64,000 bases of DNA from Bradyrhizobium sp. JYMT SZCCT0180 (GTDB taxonomy: Bacteria > Pseudomonadota > Alphaproteobacteria > Rhizobiales > Xanthobacteraceae). The notes below the pieces were generated by a model that made no database searches, had not been told where the DNA came from, and saw only the letters and a program-made list of their open reading frames with translations. The stretch covers positions 1 to 64,000 of the forward strand of contig NZ_JAFCLZ010000005.1 of NCBI RefSeq assembly GCF_018130165.1, read 5' to 3'. Position 1 is the stretch's first letter. Each line of letters starts with the position of its first letter. The translations under genes and the position numbers were made by a program. Positions 56,463-64,000 of the stretch are shown here, piece by piece.

Positions 56463-56493
56463 TTGCACCAAGACGTAGGCGATGCTACATAAT
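56463..56493 (+). promoter_or_regulatory. Predicted exbB promoter with palindromic operator
   Basis: A -35-like TTGCAC at 56463-56468 and a -10-like TACATA at 56486-56491, 17 bases apart. Between and across them lies the site ACGTAGGCGATGCTACAT (56473-56490), with the arms GTAG and CTAC six bases apart. The same 18-base site, with three differences in its centre, overlaps the promoter of the TonB-dependent receptor at 62164-62181. A TGCAA/TTGCA palindrome at 56448-56467 overlaps the -35. A metal-responsive repressor is the likely binder. Confidence 0.55.
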
Positions 56494-56535
56494 GGGGTGA
56501 ATACGTTAATTCCCAGCCCCTTAGAGGCAAAATCG

Positions 56536-57402
56536 ATGCGATCCTGGAAAGCTCTTCGACGCGACGCCCTTCCCTTTGGCCTTGTTGGAATTCTGGATGG
56601 CCCGAAGGTTCGCCGCGGCGCCGCGTTGCTTGCGCTGCCGTTCTTGTTTTCAGCGCTTCCGGCGTCGGCACAGGATGGAGTGGACAGAACCGCGATCGCG
56701 GCCGCGCTGCTGCCCCGCGATCTCAGTCCCTGGGGCATGTTCATGCAGGCCGACATTGTCGTCAAAGCCGTGATGATCGGTCTGGCTTTTGCGACCCTGG
56801 TGACCTGGACGGTATGGCTCTCCAAGACGATCGAGCTGATCAAGGCGCGCCGCAATGCGAAGAACGCCTTGCGCGAACTCGCGAGCGCCAGGAACGTTGA
56901 AGACGCCGTGCGGCAGGTGCCCGAGGGGGCGGTTGCGCAATTGCTCGAGGGCGCGATGGCGGAACTGAAACTGAGCACCGATCGAATGGACAAGGAAGGG
57001 ATCAAGACCCGGGTTGCGTCCCGGCTTCAGCAGATCGAGGCGGCGGCCAGCAGGCGCATCGGGTTCGGCACCGGCGTGCTGGCAACCATCGGATCGACCG
57101 GCCCCTTTGTCGGACTGTTCGGGACGGTGTGGGGAATCATGAACAGCTTCATCGGAATCTCGAAGTCGCAAACCACCAATCTCGCGGTGGTCGCGCCGGG
57201 GATCGCCGAGGCACTGCTGGCGACGGCGCTCGGGCTGGTGGCGGCGATACCCGCCGTGATGATCTACAATCTGTTCGCGCGCCAGATCAGCTCGTACCGC
57301 GCGCTGCTCGGCGACGGGTCGTCGGAGATCACCCGCCTCGTCGGCCGTGACCTCGACGGCGGCGCCATACTCGTCCGGCGACATCTCGCAGCGGCGGAGT
57401 AG
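56536..57402 (+). CDS. exbB: TonB-system energiser ExbB (MotA/TolQ/ExbB family)
   Basis: 288 residues. An N-terminal hydrophobic segment (RRGAALLALPFLFSALPASAQ) resembles a signal peptide, as found in longer ExbB versions; three membrane segments follow, with the family motif GTGVLATIGSTGPFVGLFGTVWGIMNSFIGI and EALLATALGLVAAIPAVMIYNLF. It forms the proton channel that powers TonB. The ATG at 56536 has GAGGC upstream; an ATG at 56482 lies inside the predicted operator and is unlikely. exbD follows after 5 bases. Confidence 0.93.
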   Translation: MRSWKALRRDALPFGLVGILDGPKVRRGAALLALPFLFSALPASAQDGVDRTAIAAALLPRDLSPWGMFMQADIVVKAVMIGLAFATLVTWTVWLSKTIELIKARRNAKNALRELASARNVEDAVRQVPEGAVAQLLEGAMAELKLSTDRMDKEGIKTRVASRLQQIEAAASRRIGFGTGVLATIGSTGPFVGLFGTVWGIMNSFIGISKSQTTNLAVVAPGIAEALLATALGLVAAIPAVMIYNLFARQISSYRALLGDGSSEITRLVGRDLDGGAILVRRHLAAAE

Positions 57403-57407
57403 CGGCG

Positions 57408-57833
57408 ATGGCTGTCAGTGTTAACCAGAGCAACAGCGATCTTGCTGAGGTCCATGAGATCAACGTGACACCGTTCATCGATGTCATTCTCGTGCTGCTC
57501 ATCATCTTCATGGTCGCCGCGCCGCTCGCAACCGTCGATATCGCGGTCGATCTTCCGGCCTCGAATGCGGAGCCGCAGCCTCGGCCCGACAAGCCGGTCT
57601 ACCTGACGGTCAAACCGGATCTCTCTTTGTCCGTCGGCAACGAGACCGTGGGGCGCGCCGCGCTGCCCGGCGTGCTCGATGCGAGCACCAACGGCCATAA
57701 GGACAGCCGAATTTTCCTGCGCGCCGACAAGCTCGTCCCGTATGGCGAGGTAATGCAGGTGATGAACATGCTGCGCGCCGCCGGCTATCTGAAAGTCGCC
57801 CTGGTCGGACTGGAACAAGCCGCGTCGCCATGA
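57408..57833 (+). CDS. exbD: TonB-system energiser ExbD
   Basis: 141 residues with one N-terminal membrane helix preceded by HEINVTPFIDVILVLLIIFMVAAPLA, containing the essential membrane Asp of ExbD/TolR proteins. The periplasmic part has DKPVYLTVKPDLSLSVGN and RIFLRADKLVPYGEVMQVMNMLRAAGYLKVALVG. It works with ExbB. It overlaps tonB by 4 bases (ATGA). Confidence 0.95.
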   Translation: MAVSVNQSNSDLAEVHEINVTPFIDVILVLLIIFMVAAPLATVDIAVDLPASNAEPQPRPDKPVYLTVKPDLSLSVGNETVGRAALPGVLDASTNGHKDSRIFLRADKLVPYGEVMQVMNMLRAAGYLKVALVGLEQAASP

Positions 57834-58591
57834 TGCAGCTCGCGGCCGAAGATCGTTCCGACCTGCAACGCTGGATGTTGAGCGGCCTTGCGGTCGTGTG
57901 CGTCTATGCCGGCGTGACGGCCACGCTCGCGACCTGGCGCTATCCGGACGACATCGCGGCCACCGAGCCATCCGGTGCAATCGTGGTCGACCTCGCACCG
58001 TTGCCGGCAGCGCCCTCGACGACCCCCTCCGATGTCGCGCCGGGCCCGGAACAGGTGATGTCGGAAGCGCAGCCCGAGGCGAAGCCTGAGGTGACGCCAC
58101 CCGATGAAACGCCCGAGCTGCCCTCCGCACCCAATCCGGATGCGGCCGTGGCGCTGCAGAGTAAGCCGCAGCCCGAGGTGACGCCGCAGCAGCAGGCGGC
58201 CGCCGCCACCACGTCGGCACCGGCAGCGATCACCGAGCGCATTGCGCCGGTAGCCGTAGCACCCACCCAGGGCGTGCCGAATGCGATGGACTCTCCAGCT
58301 GTGGTGACATGGCGAACCAAAGTCATCGCCTTGATCGAAAAGAACAAGCGCTATCCGGAAGCCGCACGGCCGCGGCGCGAGCAAGGAACTGCACAGGTGT
58401 CGTTTGCGCTCGATCGCAAGGGACTGGTGACCAACGCGCGCGTAATTCAAAGCTCCGGCTCAAGCGCCCTCGACCAGGAAGCCGTCGCGCTGCTCAAGCG
58501 CGCGGAGCCATTTCCCGCGCCGCCCGCAGCTTTCCCGGGCGATTCCGTCGTCGTGAAGCGGGTGCCGATCGCCTTCACCATAAAAAAATAG
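57830..58591 (+). CDS. tonB: TonB energy transducer
   Basis: 253 residues: one N-terminal membrane helix (WMLSGLAVVCVYAGVTATLATW), a long Pro/Glu/Ala/Gln-rich periplasmic spacer (about 45-150) and the C-terminal TonB domain (WRTKVIALIEKNKRYPEAARPRREQGTAQVSFALDRKGLVTNARVIQSSGS, ending VPIAFTIKK). YP in KRYPEAA is the family signature. It spans the periplasm and energises outer membrane receptors such as the one encoded 310 bases downstream on the other strand. Confidence 0.95.
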   Translation: MMQLAAEDRSDLQRWMLSGLAVVCVYAGVTATLATWRYPDDIAATEPSGAIVVDLAPLPAAPSTTPSDVAPGPEQVMSEAQPEAKPEVTPPDETPELPSAPNPDAAVALQSKPQPEVTPQQQAAAATTSAPAAITERIAPVAVAPTQGVPNAMDSPAVVTWRTKVIALIEKNKRYPEAARPRREQGTAQVSFALDRKGLVTNARVIQSSGSSALDQEAVALLKRAEPFPAPPAAFPGDSVVVKRVPIAFTIKK

Positions 58592-58901: not shown

Positions 58902-61900
58902 TCAATCCGCAATGATCGCCCCGCCGGCGCCGAACTTGTAGTTCACGCCGACCCTGACGCCGTCGCTTGTCACCCTGGTGTTGGAGTCGAATGCGACCGC
59001 TGTGTTGGCGGCGGTGGCCGGCGTGGAACGTACCGAACCGAAATCCATGTGGAGATATTCGAGCTTGCCAGTCCAGTTGCCCGCGAGGCGGGTTTCCAGA
59101 CCGCCGCCTACCGCCCAACCGAAACGGTAGTTGTCGGTATTCAAAGCTGCCGTCGTCGCGGCACCCGCATTATCGAAACCTGTGACAGACGTCGACGTCG
59201 TTATCTTGCCGAACGGAACGCCCGCCGTGACATAGGCAAGCAGACCGGGCGAAACGAGCGCACCGACGCGCCCGCGAACCGAGGCGACCCATCCCAGTTG
59301 GTAATCCAGGCTTGCCGTCACGGGTGCGTCGAGCGGAGCCAGCGCCACGTTGCAGACATTGCCGAGACAAGTGATGGCATTGCGTCCGCGCTGATTGCGG
59401 TATTCGAAATCGCCTTCGATGCCTGCGACCAGCCGGCCCGATATCCAGTTGTATCCAGCCTGCCCGCCAAAGCTGGCGGTGCCGCGCGTCGAGAACAGGC
59501 GGCCGCCGTCAAACGGCAGACCGGTTGCATCCTCGCTGAACACCGCGCTGGTAACAGCCCTGCCGCCGACATACCCGACATTGCCGCCGGCATAGATGCC
59601 CGCCCAGTTCCAGGCCGCTTCAAGCATCCGCGCTGATTTGTAATACATGTTGCCGCCCGGCCCCCGCGCCATCGCGAAGGACGAACCGGGCGTCCCGCTC
59701 GGCCGGTCGACGCCGTATTTGACGTTGAGGAAGAGTTTGACGCCGCGCCCGGGCTGCAGGATCTCGTCCTTGTGGAATTGAACGGCATTGCGAATGTTGG
59801 CGTTGAGCAGATTGTCGCCAACCAGTCCGGTCACGACTTCGACCGCGCCCCACGGCGAATCCTTCCAGAACTGCCGGTTCTCCAGCTGCACCTTGAGCAG
59901 ATCGTATCCGCCGGTCGTCGTATCGAACTGCGAAACGTCGTTCTGCGCGAAGGCATGCAGCAGGCCGATACGGGCGAACCAGCTGTCGTTCCGCCAATAG
60001 GCACCGCCGCCGAGCCGCATCGGCGGGATGCGCGGCACATTGCTGCCGTCGGTGAACGTCGCGCGCACGACATCGAACTGTCCGTCAACACCGAACGTAC
60101 CGCTCGCGAGCGGTGCGACGTCCCATTGCCAGGCCAACTCGCCGCCGCGAAACGTCGCGTCGCGCTGATCGTAGTTGACCTGGATGTAATCGGTGCCGGC
60201 GCCGCAGGTGGCAAACGTTTCCTGGCACAGGATACCGGTGGCGCGCGAGAAGATGAACTTGTCGTACGACGTGTAATAGGCATTGGCGGCGAACCTGAAG
60301 TCGCCGGCGATGCGCTTCAGGCCGATTTCCGCCGTCTGCGCGGTCTCGATTCCCAGGTTCGGATTGCCGATCTTGAAGGTCTTCTCCGAACCGTCAGGAC
60401 CTTGCGCGAACAATTCAAGCGCGCGCGGCGCGCGTTCGATTCGCTGCAGCGTCAGGCTCGCGACCAGGTAGGACGGAAGATCCTTGATGATGCCGAAACT
60501 GGCGCTCTTCGGCATGAAGTCGAGCTTAGCTGCAGCCCTGCCCGGTTCATTGGGCGGCGGCAGAAAATTCGACGGGAAGGTGAACGCCGTGCCGGCGATG
60601 TCGACGCCCTCGATGCGCCCCGCCAATTGCGTGCGCAGCGTGTCCGTGTGTCTTACTTCATTGAGGAAATACGCCGCCGCGGTTGTGGTCTTGGCAGGAA
60701 GGAGGATCGCCTGGCCTGCCGTATCCAGTTGCTGGTAGGCGCCCTGCGCGCCGATAATGCTGGTCAGCGCCCCGATCGGCGTGGCGAACGCTGCAGATTC
60801 AAGCTCGATCTTGCCCTCGGTCTGCGTGTTCTTGAAGGTGGCGGTGATCCCCTCGTAACCGGGGCCGGCGAGCACCGTCTCGTCATGCCGGTACTCCGAA
60901 TATCCGGTCCAGTACCTGACGGCGGCAAGCGCGGCCGCATCCGGGCGATACTCGCCCTTGCTGGTAATCTTGGTCTGCTCGAGATCGTTGTGCTGGCGGG
61001 CATCCGCGGTCGCTATACCCGGAACGAAATAGTCGCTGGTGAACCGCGAGACGGCGATGCCGGCATAGCCGCCGTCGAACAAATAAGAACCGCCGACCGC
61101 CGCTCCCGCGCTTTGCGAGGCTGAATTCGGTTGCCTGCCGTTGCCGACCGGCGCGGGGTTTGGCGGAACGAGATAGGGATAACTCGGGATGCTGTAATCG
61201 CTGGAGGATCGCCCGTAGATGTCGGCGTGAACGGCAGCATTGCGACCGCCGGCGTCCAGCAACAGACCGCTTTCCCATCCTTTGTTGACGCTCGTCACGG
61301 CCGATCTCAGTTCCGCGGCCACCCCACCTACTGGAGCGGCGGTCGGAATCCGGTTGTTGTTGACGTCGACGACGCCGCCGACGGCCTGTGAGCCGAACCG
61401 GAGCGCGCCCGGTCCGCGAATGACGTCGACCTTCTGGATCGCGAGAGGATCGATCGGTACCGCGTGGTCCTGCGCGATGTCAGACACGTCGACCGCACCG
61501 ACGCCGTTCTCCTGGATGCGGACCTTGGCATCCGACAAGCCACGCAGAACGGGGCGGGACGATTCCGTGGCCAGGCCTGCGGAAGTCGCGCCGGGCATGT
61601 TGGAGAACAGGCTGCCGAACCCGCCATTGCTGCTGCCGGTCTGGATTTGATTGCTGCCGATCGTCGACAATGGCGCAAACGGCGGATTGAAGGGCGAGGC
61701 AGGCGCGGCCGCCGGGGCGGGACCCGGCAGCGGTGCCGCGACGGTCCGTGAAGGCCGGCCGGGCTCGGCGCGCCCTGCCCGCCGCGCCGGCTTGGGCTGG
61801 CGCCCCTCCACGGTCACTTGCGGCAGGTCGATTTCCGCCGGCGCGGGCTTGTCCTGCGGTCCGGCAGCGGTTGCCGGTTGCGGCGGTGCCGTCTGCGATT

Positions 61901-62105
61901 GAGCGGGAGCCGCCGGGGCTTGTCCCGTTGCCGGGGCTGTCGGCGCGGATGGTTCGGCAGGCGCCTGAGGCGCGGCCGGCGACGCCGATGGCGCAGGAGA
62001 CGCCGATAGCGGAGGCATGGCCGTCTGCGAGAGCGCCGCAGCCTGGCTCAAACATACCATTGCAAATGCAGACGTGCCCAACAGGGCCATTCGTGTCGCG
62101 CGCAT
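58902..62105 (-). CDS. TonB-dependent receptor fused to an Omp25-like outer membrane barrel
   Basis: 1067 residues. A signal peptide (MRATRMALLGTSAFAMVCLSQAAALS) is followed by an Ala/Pro/Gln-rich spacer and a TonB-box-like LPQVTV at 94-99. The plug domain (about 140-255) shows SRPVLRGLSDAKVRIQENGVG and IQKVDVIRGPGALRFGSQAVGGVVDV. The 22-strand barrel runs to about 800 (ending near VKLFLNVKYGV). After a Gly/Ser-rich link a second module starts at W832 (NWAGIYAGGNVGYVGG) and ends VRVGVNYKFGAGG, the pattern of the small Omp25/RopB-like rhizobial porin family of about 200 residues. The fusion is continuous in one frame. It is divergent from mntR, so manganese or iron uptake is likely. Confidence 0.93.
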   Translation of the reverse strand: MRATRMALLGTSAFAMVCLSQAAALSQTAMPPLSASPAPSASPAAPQAPAEPSAPTAPATGQAPAAPAQSQTAPPQPATAAGPQDKPAPAEIDLPQVTVEGRQPKPARRAGRAEPGRPSRTVAAPLPGPAPAAAPASPFNPPFAPLSTIGSNQIQTGSSNGGFGSLFSNMPGATSAGLATESSRPVLRGLSDAKVRIQENGVGAVDVSDIAQDHAVPIDPLAIQKVDVIRGPGALRFGSQAVGGVVDVNNNRIPTAAPVGGVAAELRSAVTSVNKGWESGLLLDAGGRNAAVHADIYGRSSSDYSIPSYPYLVPPNPAPVGNGRQPNSASQSAGAAVGGSYLFDGGYAGIAVSRFTSDYFVPGIATADARQHNDLEQTKITSKGEYRPDAAALAAVRYWTGYSEYRHDETVLAGPGYEGITATFKNTQTEGKIELESAAFATPIGALTSIIGAQGAYQQLDTAGQAILLPAKTTTAAAYFLNEVRHTDTLRTQLAGRIEGVDIAGTAFTFPSNFLPPPNEPGRAAAKLDFMPKSASFGIIKDLPSYLVASLTLQRIERAPRALELFAQGPDGSEKTFKIGNPNLGIETAQTAEIGLKRIAGDFRFAANAYYTSYDKFIFSRATGILCQETFATCGAGTDYIQVNYDQRDATFRGGELAWQWDVAPLASGTFGVDGQFDVVRATFTDGSNVPRIPPMRLGGGAYWRNDSWFARIGLLHAFAQNDVSQFDTTTGGYDLLKVQLENRQFWKDSPWGAVEVVTGLVGDNLLNANIRNAVQFHKDEILQPGRGVKLFLNVKYGVDRPSGTPGSSFAMARGPGGNMYYKSARMLEAAWNWAGIYAGGNVGYVGGRAVTSAVFSEDATGLPFDGGRLFSTRGTASFGGQAGYNWISGRLVAGIEGDFEYRNQRGRNAITCLGNVCNVALAPLDAPVTASLDYQLGWVASVRGRVGALVSPGLLAYVTAGVPFGKITTSTSVTGFDNAGAATTAALNTDNYRFGWAVGGGLETRLAGNWTGKLEYLHMDFGSVRSTPATAANTAVAFDSNTRVTSDGVRVGVNYKFGAGGAIIAD

Positions 62106-62163
62106 CTCGTCCCCAACCTTCATCGCGCTACAGGAACCGGTCCGGATAAGCTGCGACCTTAAA

Positions 62164-62207
62164 ACGTAGGTAAGGCTACATGTTAATGTTGCCCCGTTAA
62201 CTGTCAA
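62164..62207 (-). promoter_or_regulatory. Predicted receptor promoter with palindromic operator
   Basis: On the minus strand a perfect -35 TTGACA (62207-62202) and a -10-like TAACAT (62185-62180) are 16 bases apart. Directly downstream, over the expected start point, lies the site seen on the plus strand as ACGTAGGTAAGGCTACAT (62164-62181), with GTAG and CTAC six bases apart. It matches 15 of 18 positions of the exbB site. Confidence 0.6.
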
Positions 62208-62336
62208 GACGCCGCGGCCGGTCGTCGCAAGCGCGCGCCGGCCTGTTGCGGAATCGCGACACGTCGCCAACTTGCAATGTGGTCGGCAGCACGCCATGGT
62301 CTGCCTCCTCTCGATGGATTCGCCTGGAAAGGTGCC

Positions 62337-62813
62337 GTGTTGCGCAAGCCCTCGACAGACCGGGCCAAATCGATGCAGCCGCTCCCCACGGAGCAAACGC
62401 AGGCGCGCCGCTTTGGAAAAGCGCGGTCGGCGCGGTCGACCGCGGTTCTGGAAGATTATGTCGAACTGATCTCCGATCTGCTCGGCACGACCGGCGAGGC
62501 GCGCCCGACCGACATCGCGCGCCGCCTCGGCGTGTCGCACCCGACGGCGATCGACACCATCGCGCGGTTGAAGCGGGAAGATCTTGTGACCGCGCGGCCC
62601 TATCGCGGGGTGTTCCTGACCGAGAAGGGCGAGACCCTCGCCAAGCGTGTCCGCGCACGCCACCGGCTTGTGGTGGATGTCCTGCTGGCGCTGGGCGTCC
62701 CGCAGGAAGCGGCAGAGGGCGATGCCGAGGGCATCGAGCATCACGTGTCGGATGTGACGCTGAAGGCGTTCGCCGAATTCCTGCGCGCCAACAAGGATCG
62801 CCGCAAGGTGTGA
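62337..62813 (+). CDS. mntR: Manganese-responsive regulator MntR (DtxR family)
   Basis: 158 residues, close to the length of E. coli MntR. The winged helix is VLEDYVELISDLLGTTGEARPTDIARRLGVSHPTAIDTIARLKREDLVTARPYRGVFLTEKGE; the metal-binding and dimer part has RHRLVVDVLLALGVPQEAAEGDAEGIEHHVSDVTLKAFAEFL, where the Asp/Glu/His ligand positions of MntR are kept (ED of EDYVE, EGIEHH). It represses or activates manganese transport genes. The start is uncertain: GTG at 62337 or TTG at 62340, both after GGAAAGG, or ATG at 62373. It is divergent from the receptor gene, whose promoter it may control. Confidence 0.9.
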   Translation: MLRKPSTDRAKSMQPLPTEQTQARRFGKARSARSTAVLEDYVELISDLLGTTGEARPTDIARRLGVSHPTAIDTIARLKREDLVTARPYRGVFLTEKGETLAKRVRARHRLVVDVLLALGVPQEAAEGDAEGIEHHVSDVTLKAFAEFLRANKDRRKV

Positions 62814-62835: not shown

Positions 62836-64000
62836 CTACCCGTTGCGGCTGGACTTGCGCTCGGCGGATTTACGCTCACCGGTGACGGCGTTTTCCGCCG
62901 CCCTGCTCATCAGCGACGCGTAATCATGGCCGAACAGGACTTCGCAGAAGCGGATCGCCGCCTTGGCCTGCATCTGCCGGTAGGCGCGCGCCTTGGTGTC
63001 GCCACCGCGCAGCGCCTGCACCAGCGCCTCGGTCGAGTGCTCGACATAATGCTGCAGGTCGGAATAGGTCCGCAACGTGACCTCGTTGATCGCAAGTTCG
63101 CTGGCATAGGTGCGGCAAACCGCGACGAAATCGATCAGGGCCGCGGTTTCCTCGACGTCCGTGGCGTCGATCTTGGGAGCCGACGAAATGTCCTTGTCGG
63201 CGCGCTGGCGCAGGATGCGCCGGACCCGGCCGGGCACGCTGTCGATTTCCGACTGCAGCGAATTGGAAATGTCGGCGCGGATCGAGGTCAGCTGCTTGCC
63301 CCACGTGGAATCGTTGCGCAGGTCGAGTTCGGTGCGCAGGCCGCGTACGCCGTCATGCAGCGTCTTCAGCTGTTCGCTGACATTGTCGAACTGGCCGCGC
63401 CTGATGTCGGTGCGCAGGCAGGCCGCGAGAAAGGACAGATCGTGCAGCGCGAGCGTGACGGCGATGCCGTATGGCGTCGCGGCGACACGAATTTCATCGT
63501 CGGAAGCCGCCATCTTGATCGCGAGGCGGATGATCTGCCACGGCGCCGCCAGCCGCTGCATGATCAGCGACAGCGCGAACGGCAGCAATTGCGGCGTCTG
63601 CAGCGAGGGAACATTGAGCGCCGAGGTCACCGACGCGACCTGGGATTCCGACAACCCCCGCAACTGGCTGGCAAGCCGGCTGCCCAGCGTGTCCATCGCC
63701 TCACGGGCGCGCAAAACCGACCCGATCGACAGGAAGTCCTCGACGACGTTGGGCGGGCCGATACGCGCGAGCGAACGCTGCCTGTCGTCGCCCTGCACCG
63801 GCGCCGCGACCTTGGCGATCGCATCCGCGGCGGCAAGCTGAAATTTGCGCGTCTCGGATTCCAGTCCCGCGGTCGAACCGCTCTGCCTGATCTCGGCCAG
63901 TGCGGCTTCGAAGGCCCGCGCCTGCTCCGGCGCGCCGTCCCGGGCCAGCCATTGCCAGACCGGCAGCAGCGAGGTGCGGCGGATCTGGCCCTGCCGCATC
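62836..64000 (-). CDS. Unrecognised protein, C-terminal part (runs off the window edge)
   Basis: At least 388 residues of an unrecognised, mostly helical cytoplasmic protein. Visible features are LARIGPPNVVEDFLSIGSVLRAREAMDTLG, ALNVPSLQTPQLLPFALSLIMQRLAAPWQIIRLAIKMAAS, a long polar coiled-coil-like region (FDNVSEQLKTLHDGVRGLRTELDL) and DYASLMSRAAENA near the end. There is no signal peptide or membrane segment in the visible part. The true start is probably beyond the window edge. It converges on mntR, 22 bases after its stop. I recall similar uncharacterised proteins in Bradyrhizobium but no function. Confidence 0.75.
   Translation of the reverse strand, partial: MRQGQIRRTSLLPVWQWLARDGAPEQARAFEAALAEIRQSGSTAGLESETRKFQLAAADAIAKVAAPVQGDDRQRSLARIGPPNVVEDFLSIGSVLRAREAMDTLGSRLASQLRGLSESQVASVTSALNVPSLQTPQLLPFALSLIMQRLAAPWQIIRLAIKMAASDDEIRVAATPYGIAVTLALHDLSFLAACLRTDIRRGQFDNVSEQLKTLHDGVRGLRTELDLRNDSTWGKQLTSIRADISNSLQSEIDSVPGRVRRILRQRADKDISSAPKIDATDVEETAALIDFVAVCRTYASELAINEVTLRTYSDLQHYVEHSTEALVQALRGGDTKARAYRQMQAKAAIRFCEVLFGHDYASLMSRAAENAVTGERKSAERKSSRNG

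Follow-up and report, generated by a model that had tools for sequence, protein, structure and literature searches.

A ZnuD-like TonB-dependent receptor fused to a predicted second outer-membrane barrel beside an mntR-type gene in Bradyrhizobium

Organization of the locus

The window, a stretch of 64,000 nucleotides from Bradyrhizobium sp. JYMT SZCCT0180, contains a gene (58902..62105, minus strand, stop included) whose frame starts with ATG and stays free of stops through 1067 amino acids. Its reading as a fusion gene draws on this open frame, on Pfam domains and on related loci. The encoded protein begins with a signal-peptide-like stretch (approximately residues 1–27; 62025..62105, minus strand) that was judged by eye, without a predictor, and contains a helix at residues 2–26 in a low-confidence full-length model. 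After it come a TonB receptor plug domain (residues 146–245), a ZnuD-like barrel that runs to about residue 797, 32 residues of linker and, at residues 830–1058, an OMP_b-brl domain. Plug, TonB barrel and OMP_b-brl domains are all present in each of three fused proteins scanned (P0001, L022 and L076).

The fusion gene converges with an exbB-exbD-tonB cluster on the plus strand and faces a divergent mntR-type gene across an operator-like repeat. The cluster comprises exbB (56482..57402; NCBIfam TIGR02797, 314.2 bits, cut-off 206.2), exbD (57408..57833; TIGR02803, 204.9 bits, cut-off 152.95) and tonB (57830..58591; Pfam accession PF03544, NCBIfam TIGR01352). The mntR-like regulator gene (62277..62813, plus strand, start putative) scores 207.6 bits against NCBIfam NF008273 (cut-off 153), which places its product in the MntR family. 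The original prediction, which dealt with the receptor gene, did not mention this setting.

Upstream of the fusion gene, a pattern match identified a sigma-70-like promoter (TTGACA-16-TAACAT; 62180..62207, minus strand), found once compared to a mean of 0.1 in shuffled sequences. Its −10 element is overlapped by an inverted repeat with a GTAG-N6-CTAC core (62162..62183, minus strand), a candidate MntR box that is the only site in the genome within three mismatches. Set against the repeat that precedes mntH in E. coli, it agrees at 17 of 24 letters in one direction and 14 of 24 in the other; a GTAG-N6-CTAC repeat was not found in the 12 kb around the genome's own mntH, a looser core included.

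Two predicted barrels on one chain

The N-terminal part of the protein has the plug-then-barrel arrangement of a TonB-dependent receptor. The plug (61371..61670, minus strand; PF07715) is matched with a whole-protein E-value of 2.3e-11 and the receptor barrel (PF00593 at residues 340–741) with one of 4.3e-20, both above the curated cut-offs. The best named family of the receptor is ZnuD and its best PDB match is 4rdr, the ZnuD chain of Neisseria meningitidis. The ZnuD NCBIfam model NF038289 gives 208.6 bits against a cut-off of 950, and a His-type paralogue beside zigA in the same genome also falls below that cut-off (218.1 bits), so NF038289 cannot separate the two receptor types. Nine plug matches occur in the genome, and only the window's sits in a frame longer than 850 amino acids.

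We assign the ZnuD-like barrel to residues 246–797 (59715..61370, minus strand). Its end is defined by a profile alignment, in which the last residue of the 4rdr chain (748) pairs with approximately residue 797, and by unfused relatives, of which all 27 that were read (12 from the same genus and 15 from other genera) have a stop in the corresponding column. The first barrel is thus predicted to be complete by homology, and the original prediction that the chain continues past a barrel end near residue 800 agrees closely with this boundary. What follows is a linker (residues 798–829; 59619..59714, minus strand), delimited by the flanking domains; it is rich in Gly, Ser and Pro, in keeping with the Gly/Ser-rich link that had been proposed.

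The second barrel spans residues 830–1060 (58926..59618, minus strand). As had been anticipated, it belongs to the OMP_b-brl family (PF13505 at residues 830–1058; E-value 1.2e-12, 48.8 bits, cut-off 28.7), and the start and end motifs quoted for it are present, NWAGIYAGGNVGY from residue 833 and VRVGVNYKFG at residues 1050–1059. Modelled alone, residues 820–1067 form an eight-stranded barrel (pLDDT 80.2, pTM 0.77) that is closest to the OmpA membrane domain by VIA-align (Z 17.6, rmsd 2.5, 166 residues aligned). Foldseek also returns OmpA-type matches for this model, with TM-scores up to 0.60 and rmsd values of about 9–11, a weaker fit than that of VIA-align. By its model, then, this segment is a stand-alone eight-stranded OmpA-type fold. 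The designation "Omp25-like" is taken over from the original prediction and serves as a label, not as a statement of descent from Omp25 or RopB proper.

Since the second part folds into its own eight-stranded barrel in the model, it need not complete the first. The possibility that the C-terminal part completes the receptor barrel is rejected on the ZnuD alignment, the stops of unfused relatives and the stand-alone model. Neither outcome named beforehand as refuting the original prediction, a frameshift that separates the two parts or a predicted structure in which the C-terminal part completes the first barrel, emerged, although in a full-length AlphaFold model the receptor part is too poor (mean pLDDT 38.1) for the two barrels, or a closed receptor barrel of 22 strands, to be visible. 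Completeness of the first barrel is accordingly predicted from the ZnuD alignment and the unfused relatives. Sequence for both barrels, together with modelling for the second, supports the prediction of two separate, complete outer-membrane barrels on one chain, as originally proposed.

Because MnoP is a manganese channel of Bradyrhizobium, a channel of this type was considered as a possible origin of the second barrel; the idea is unsupported. In the available part of one study that compares Porin_2 proteins, MnoP is the remote outgroup (PMC6011978).

Occurrence and conservation of the fusion

The two parts are fused in one open frame in all 19 near-full-length relatives found in genome contigs (64–96% identity over the best segment), two of which (L015 and L020) are cut off within the gene by the end of a contig. 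A survey by frame length covered 40 genomes of the genus, of which nine carry the fusion, each with its close orthologue in a frame of 908–1334 amino acids, and 59 genomes from other genera of the family, of which none carries it. Among the nine fused rows, the window's own, L059 and L060 were read directly and the others were called by frame length; two of the latter (956 and 908 amino acids) sit at contig starts. Unfused rows were read directly for 12 of 32 same-genus and 15 of 40 other-genus relatives and otherwise called from match end and frame length, with fragments among the other-genus rows (G046, G054, G089 and G094). Because several genomes occur in both sets, the genus survey and the 19-locus count are not additive. 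Fifteen further loci (L028–L042) match the second barrel only, and eight of them were taken into two alignments (A2 and A5).

Both barrels are under purifying selection (dN/dS). The sequence comparisons therefore identify the protein as a real, inherited two-barrel outer-membrane protein, as far as homology and modelling define the barrels, with a conserved join. A plasmid copy of the fusion gene also has mntR, tonB, exbD and exbB annotated beside it; the four plasmid records that carry it barely differ in length and appear to represent a single plasmid.

Conserved association with mntR and exbB-exbD-tonB

An mntR neighbour is present in 17 of the 19 related loci, the other two being those that a contig end cuts off within the receptor gene, and tonB-exbD-exbB synteny is conserved in 18 of 19; both counts leave out receptor matches shorter than 300 residues. 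Within the stretches examined around the 27 unfused relatives, mntR adjoins none and the three genes exbB, exbD and tonB together adjoin three. The promoter alignment leaves out L015 and L020, whose contigs start within the gene; the promoter's TTGAC and the repeat's GTAG-N6-CTAC core are each invariant in 18 of 18 aligned rows. We consider this combination of mntR, exbB-exbD-tonB and an operator-like repeat the best clue to function.

The putative metal site

The zinc ligands of ZnuD are Asp99, His100, Glu340 and His499 (PMC4557270). Alignment with ZnuD and with relatives places three of the four in the fusion protein: Asp213-His214 (61464..61469, minus strand), equivalent to Asp99-His100 and conserved in aligned relatives, and Glu409 (60879..60881, minus strand), equivalent to Glu340. 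The column of His499 is occupied by Asp571 (60393..60395, minus strand). This Asp is found in L076 and in all 22 fused rows aligned, which amount to 21 distinct ones because L060 is apparently the same locus as L023 (same gene order). The same column holds His in 12 of 12 unfused rows from the same genus and 13 of 15 from other genera. Asp at this position is tied neither to fusion nor to MntR, since two unfused receptors (L065 and L067) carry it with exbBD-tonB adjoining and no mntR match.

The same genome encodes an unfused ZnuD-like paralogue (C5; L043:7606-10008) that is 49% identical over the receptor. C5 has the same Asp, His and Glu ligands; it differs from the fusion protein in keeping the fourth-ligand His, in ending at the first barrel with a terminal Phe and in adjoining a gene that scores above the cut-off for the ZigA zinc chaperone. 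We take it as a likely zinc-type receptor. This zinc setting is not general for the paralogue type, because zigA adjoins just 3 of the 27 unfused receptors in the stretches examined.

A proposed function and its alternatives

From this evidence we infer a metal, a mode of repression, an arrangement in the membrane and roles for the second barrel. Taken as a whole, the explanation that fits best, and that we hold to be reasonably probable, is a TonB-driven importer of Mn2+ or a similar ion that is controlled by MntR and carries a tethered small barrel. The N-terminal part would be a complete ZnuD-type TonB-dependent metal receptor, most likely powered by the ExbB-ExbD-TonB complex of the adjoining genes. 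When Mn2+ is plentiful, the divergent MntR-like repressor would most likely silence the receptor gene through the repeat over the −10 element. The cargo would most likely be Mn2+, or else another free divalent ion of a similar kind, for example Fe2+. The C-terminal OmpA/Omp25-type barrel would form a separate eight-stranded unit joined through a short periplasmic linker; because this linker joins the barrels in one chain, they would sit together at a fixed 1:1 ratio. The second barrel is most likely a static module that, through its outer loops or its contacts with the membrane, holds, shields or feeds the receptor.

A more specific version, which we offer tentatively, is a MntR-controlled manganese receptor with a built-in accessory channel or capture module, combining active with passive or docking functions in a fixed geometry; here the His-to-Asp change would mark a manganese branch of the ZnuD family.

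The same architecture might instead import zinc as ZnuD does, with MntR a mere neighbour or a responder to several metals. ZnuD is, after all, the best named family, 4rdr the best PDB match, and three of the four zinc ligands are retained; judged from sequence, the His-to-Asp change would by itself leave zinc possible. We nevertheless regard a zinc importer as rather unlikely, given that every fused row has Asp as the fourth ligand, that a distinct His-type receptor lies beside zigA in the same genome, and that the mntR partner and operator-like repeat are conserved.

A ferric chelate as substrate, with MntR control reflecting Mn/Fe cross-talk, would fit the neighbourhood of the plasmid copy, which includes iron ABC transporter genes and a receptor annotated for siderophore transport, as well as the PepSY gene and additional TonB receptor near the unfused Asp-type L065. 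No genes of this kind were identified beside the window copy, however, the conserved partner is a MntR-family regulator and the protein retains three ligands of a free-ion site, which makes this reading unlikely.

The chain could also be made as one and then cut into two ordinary barrels. In favour of this is a variable, mostly less constrained linker, whose dN/dS is higher than in either barrel for 13 of the 14 pairs with a defined value; linker length, on the other hand, differs by only a few residues among 20 aligned rows, and we consider cleavage very unlikely. A frameshift, assembly artefact or decaying tail has a negligible chance of explaining the gene and is ruled out by the 19 open fused frames and the purifying selection on the second barrel.

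Relation to known systems

The plug and barrel of the fusion protein can be aligned with ZnuD from N. meningitidis (4rdr) over two stretches lying between about residues 148 and 797, and Asp99, His100 and Glu340 have equivalents in it. The fusion protein differs in the Asp that replaces His499, in its mntR neighbour and in the eight-stranded barrel after the last receptor strand; the two His-rich loop clusters of ZnuD have no counterpart visible by eye.

The original prediction held this architecture to be undescribed, which applies to the particular pairing, as far as the literature searched goes, but not to the general class. Solan et al. 2021 described outer-membrane proteins with several barrels as a class, as related in the available parts of citing papers (PMC11494523; PMC8592465). 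The class includes GfcD, predicted to have 12- and 13-strand barrels with a periplasmic domain between them (PMC11494523, in part). Such proteins likewise carry two outer-membrane barrels per chain, whereas here a plugged TonB receptor precedes an eight-stranded barrel. A fusion of a TonB receptor with a small barrel was not found described in the literature searched, in which Solan et al. 2021 is represented through citing papers. Omp25-like OMP_b-brl proteins encoded in the same genome share the Pfam family of the second barrel, and two tandem frames (L003 and L007) hold two such stretches; all of these differ in being without a TonB receptor part.

Manganese-linked TonB receptors have precedents in the available parts of two sources. 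Stenotrophomonas maltophilia has an MntR-regulated TonB receptor (TBDR-pTFP locus; PMC13217887), and Burkholderia has the TonB-dependent manganese transporter MnoT (PMC9334652; PMC13217887). The S. maltophilia locus resembles ours in pairing a TonB receptor with a predicted MntR box near mntR; it differs in its CQNC-type receptor and thioredoxin-fold partner, and the part of the source available mentions no second barrel (PMC13217887).

The fusion thus offers a conserved example from nature of an energised TonB receptor with a predicted second barrel after it. It makes two questions accessible to testing: how a chain that carries one barrel-end signal internally and another at its terminus is dealt with by the assembly machinery, and what role a tethered small barrel might play in metal uptake. 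It also supplies a candidate outer-membrane manganese receptor in Bradyrhizobium, whose pocket differs by one residue from that of a likely zinc-type paralogue in the same cell.

Domain organization of the fused receptor

An open reading frame at 62105-58902 (-) encodes a 1067-residue protein with three Pfam domains, each above its curated cut-off: Plug (residues 146-245), TonB_dep_Rec_b-barrel (residues 340-741), and OMP_b-brl (residues 830-1058). This bears out the original prediction that a TonB-dependent receptor here carries a second barrel, including the OMP_b-brl match expected in its C-terminal segment. ZnuD is both the best NCBIfam match (208.6 bits, far below the model cut-off of 950) and the best PDB sequence match (4rdr). 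In a profile alignment, the last 4rdr residue (748) meets approximately residue 797 of the fused protein and, because the alignment reaches the end of the 4rdr chain, the first barrel appears complete at about this point. A linker rich in Gly, Ser, and Pro (residues 798-829) lies between the first barrel and the OMP_b-brl domain. By eye, the chain contains two candidate barrel-end signals, one internal (KLFLNVKY) and one near the end (VRVGVNYKF).

Residues 820-1067, modelled alone with AlphaFold as the original prediction had proposed, form eight strands (pLDDT 80.2, pTM 0.77), a count in which two segments separated by a single residue are taken together. The OmpA membrane domain ranks first among solved structures by VIA-align (9fzd, Z 17.6, rmsd 2.5, 166 of 176 residues aligned) and again by Foldseek (E 1.7e-8), where the rmsd is large (9.5) and TM-scores in the OmpA rows are at most 0.60. 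The full-chain AlphaFold model, built from 28 alignment rows, is unreliable in the receptor part (mean pLDDT 38.1); across residues 831-1060, most ten-residue means lie between 60 and 88, dropping to 41-49 in three places. We take residues 820-1067, as modelled, to be a self-contained small barrel and not a C-terminal part that completes the first barrel.

Conservation and distribution of the fusion

A scan of genome contigs identified 34 related loci, 19 aligning over most of the protein (best-segment identity 64-96%) and 15 over the second barrel only. One open frame runs through both parts in all 19 near-full matches, two of which are truncated by a contig end and start within the gene. The frameshift that might have joined two separate genes is thus not borne out, and a sequencing or assembly artefact is ruled out. 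Eighteen of the 19 are named Bradyrhizobium, and the other (L016) is a metagenome-assembled genome named only Hyphomicrobiales. Nei-Gojobori dN/dS values (own script) in the three closest pairs are 0.04-0.09 for the receptor, 0.10-0.17 for the second barrel, and 0.16-0.22 for the linker. Across all 15 pairs computed, the receptor ranges over 0.04-0.22 and the second barrel over 0.10-0.42; distant pairs and a single very close one account for the top values.

When only the receptor part (658 residues) served as query, 31 of 40 Bradyrhizobium genomes (own genome included) contained a match with an E-value of 1e-60 or lower. Close orthologues (74-100%) occur in nine, each within a frame of 908-1334 residues, a length consistent with the fusion (three of the nine were read). 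A further 32 matches (46-52%) end at query residue 580-657 of 658, and all 12 of these that were fetched stop at the first-barrel end. Among 61 genomes of the family, 59 from other genera, 34 have a receptor match; only two, both Bradyrhizobium, combine a match of at least 75% with a frame long enough for the fusion. All 15 of the 40 other-genus rows that were read stop at the first barrel, and reading the longest such frame (genome row G084, 996 aa) gave the same result. Matches occur in 394 plasmid records, four of which cover at least 80% of the query, all from Bradyrhizobium and probably representing one plasmid. This conjugative plasmid carries, as annotated in Bradyrhizobium sp. ISRA443, mntR, the fused receptor, tonB, exbD, and exbB. 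This distribution across genus, family, and plasmids suggests that the fusion arose once, in the Bradyrhizobium line.

Close to the ISRA443 copy (L076, NZ_CP094524.1; typed conjugative) lie iron ABC transporter genes and a further TonB receptor. The annotated start of the fused receptor there (7172) comes after the point at which similarity to the window protein begins (7001; 6758 by tblastn).

Metal site and gene neighbourhood

The zinc ligands of ZnuD are given as Asp99, His100, Glu340, and His499 (PMC4557270). Counting along the 4rdr alignment, anchored on the loop 241-251 quoted in that paper, maps them to Asp213, His214, Glu409, and Asp571. The fused protein thus resembles ZnuD but differs at one of the four ligands, and for this reason we do not file it as ZnuD. 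Asp occupies position 571 in all 22 aligned fused rows (21 distinct) and in the ISRA443 copy; His occupies this column in 12/12 unfused rows of the same genus and 13/15 from other genera. L065 and L067 break this pattern, having Asp although they are unfused, so Asp is not bound to the fusion; both adjoin exbB-exbD-tonB and have no mntR match. These Asp-type receptors (L065:5240-7123 (-) and L067:5038-6924 (+)) come from two other genera of the family.

An MntR-type regulator gene (NF008273, 207.6 bits, cut-off 153) is divergent to the fused gene, and exbB, exbD, and tonB are convergent with it. Related loci contain mntR in 17 of 19 cases (in the remaining two, the sequence starts within the receptor gene) and tonB-exbD-exbB in 18 of 19, with none in the L023 stretch examined. 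Beside the 27 unfused relatives read, in the stretches examined, some of them short on one side, we found no mntR, all three of exbB, exbD, and tonB in three cases (L052, L065, L067), and zigA in three (L043, L051, L053). The own-genome His-type paralogue (L043, contig C5), which also falls short of the ZnuD cut-off, adjoins a gene passing the ZigA zinc-chaperone cut-off (615 versus 600 bits), suggesting one cell with a zinc-type receptor and a receptor for another metal. The oxygen-rich site, encoded beside mntR, points to Mn2+ as the probable metal of the fused receptor.

At L052:2632-7726, a His-type unfused receptor is flanked by exbB-exbD-tonB and, on the opposite side, by a gene for a Fur-family regulator, possibly Zur. 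The 387-residue protein encoded at 62836-63999 (-) matches nothing in Pfam or NCBIfam at E 0.01; among the 17 related loci covering that side of mntR, 12 retain its gene there.

Promoter and operator-like repeat

A sigma-70-like promoter (TTGACA-16-TAACAT, 62207-62180 (-); one found versus a mean of 0.1 in shuffles) precedes the fused gene, its -10 element overlapped by an inverted repeat with a GTAG-N6-CTAC core (62183-62162 (-)). This core and TTGAC are kept in all 18 aligned intervals between mntR and the fused gene, and no second copy of the site, allowing three mismatches, occurs in the genome. Its 24-letter form agrees with the repeat upstream of Escherichia coli mntH, which we take to be an MntR box, at 17 letters on the other strand and 14 on the gene strand; the 22-letter form reaches 16 at this E. 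coli repeat, a score attained in 6 of 2000 plain shuffles of the 260-base stretch searched. MntR is described as binding short inverted palindromes (PMC13217887, citing Patzer and Hantke 2001). Counting against the MntR-box reading, the 12 kb surrounding the genome's one Nramp gene (mntH, contig C20) contain no such repeat. By eye, TTGCAA words recur approximately 40-70 bases upstream of the mntH ORF (L046), perhaps a Mur- or Irr-type site.

Proposed mechanism

When manganese is scarce, MntR would leave its predicted operator and the receptor would be made. Once captured by the receptor at its Asp-His-Glu-Asp site, the ion would be driven past the plug by the ExbB-ExbD-TonB complex encoded nearby. 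The second barrel would begin on the periplasmic side after the 32-residue linker, a topologically sound placement because outer-membrane barrels with an even strand number start and end in the periplasm. Candidate roles for it include an anchor, a shield, a loop-borne capture or docking site, and an assembly aid.

Comparison with known systems

Published precedents include TonB-dependent manganese transport (MnoT) and a TonB receptor under MntR regulation (PMC9334652, PMC13217887). The architecture had been put forward as undescribed. Multi-barrel outer-membrane proteins are in fact a described class (Solan et al. 2021, via PMC11494523 and PMC8592465), but the titles and abstract openings of the openly licensed papers searched yielded no TonB receptor with a second barrel. 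The fusion is therefore best regarded as a variant within this class.

A second kind of multi-barrel protein is present in the same genome: single frames of 477 and 525 aa at L003:1489-2922 (-) (contig C50) and L007:1354-2931 (+) (contig C9) each contain two OMP_b-brl stretches, forming tandem Omp25-like double barrels. Other Omp25-like matches, at C11:184841-185518, C13:49739-50452, and C8:176742-177251, sit in stop-to-stop frames of 577, 511, and 827 aa, respectively, which exceed the need of a single small barrel and may encode more double barrels.
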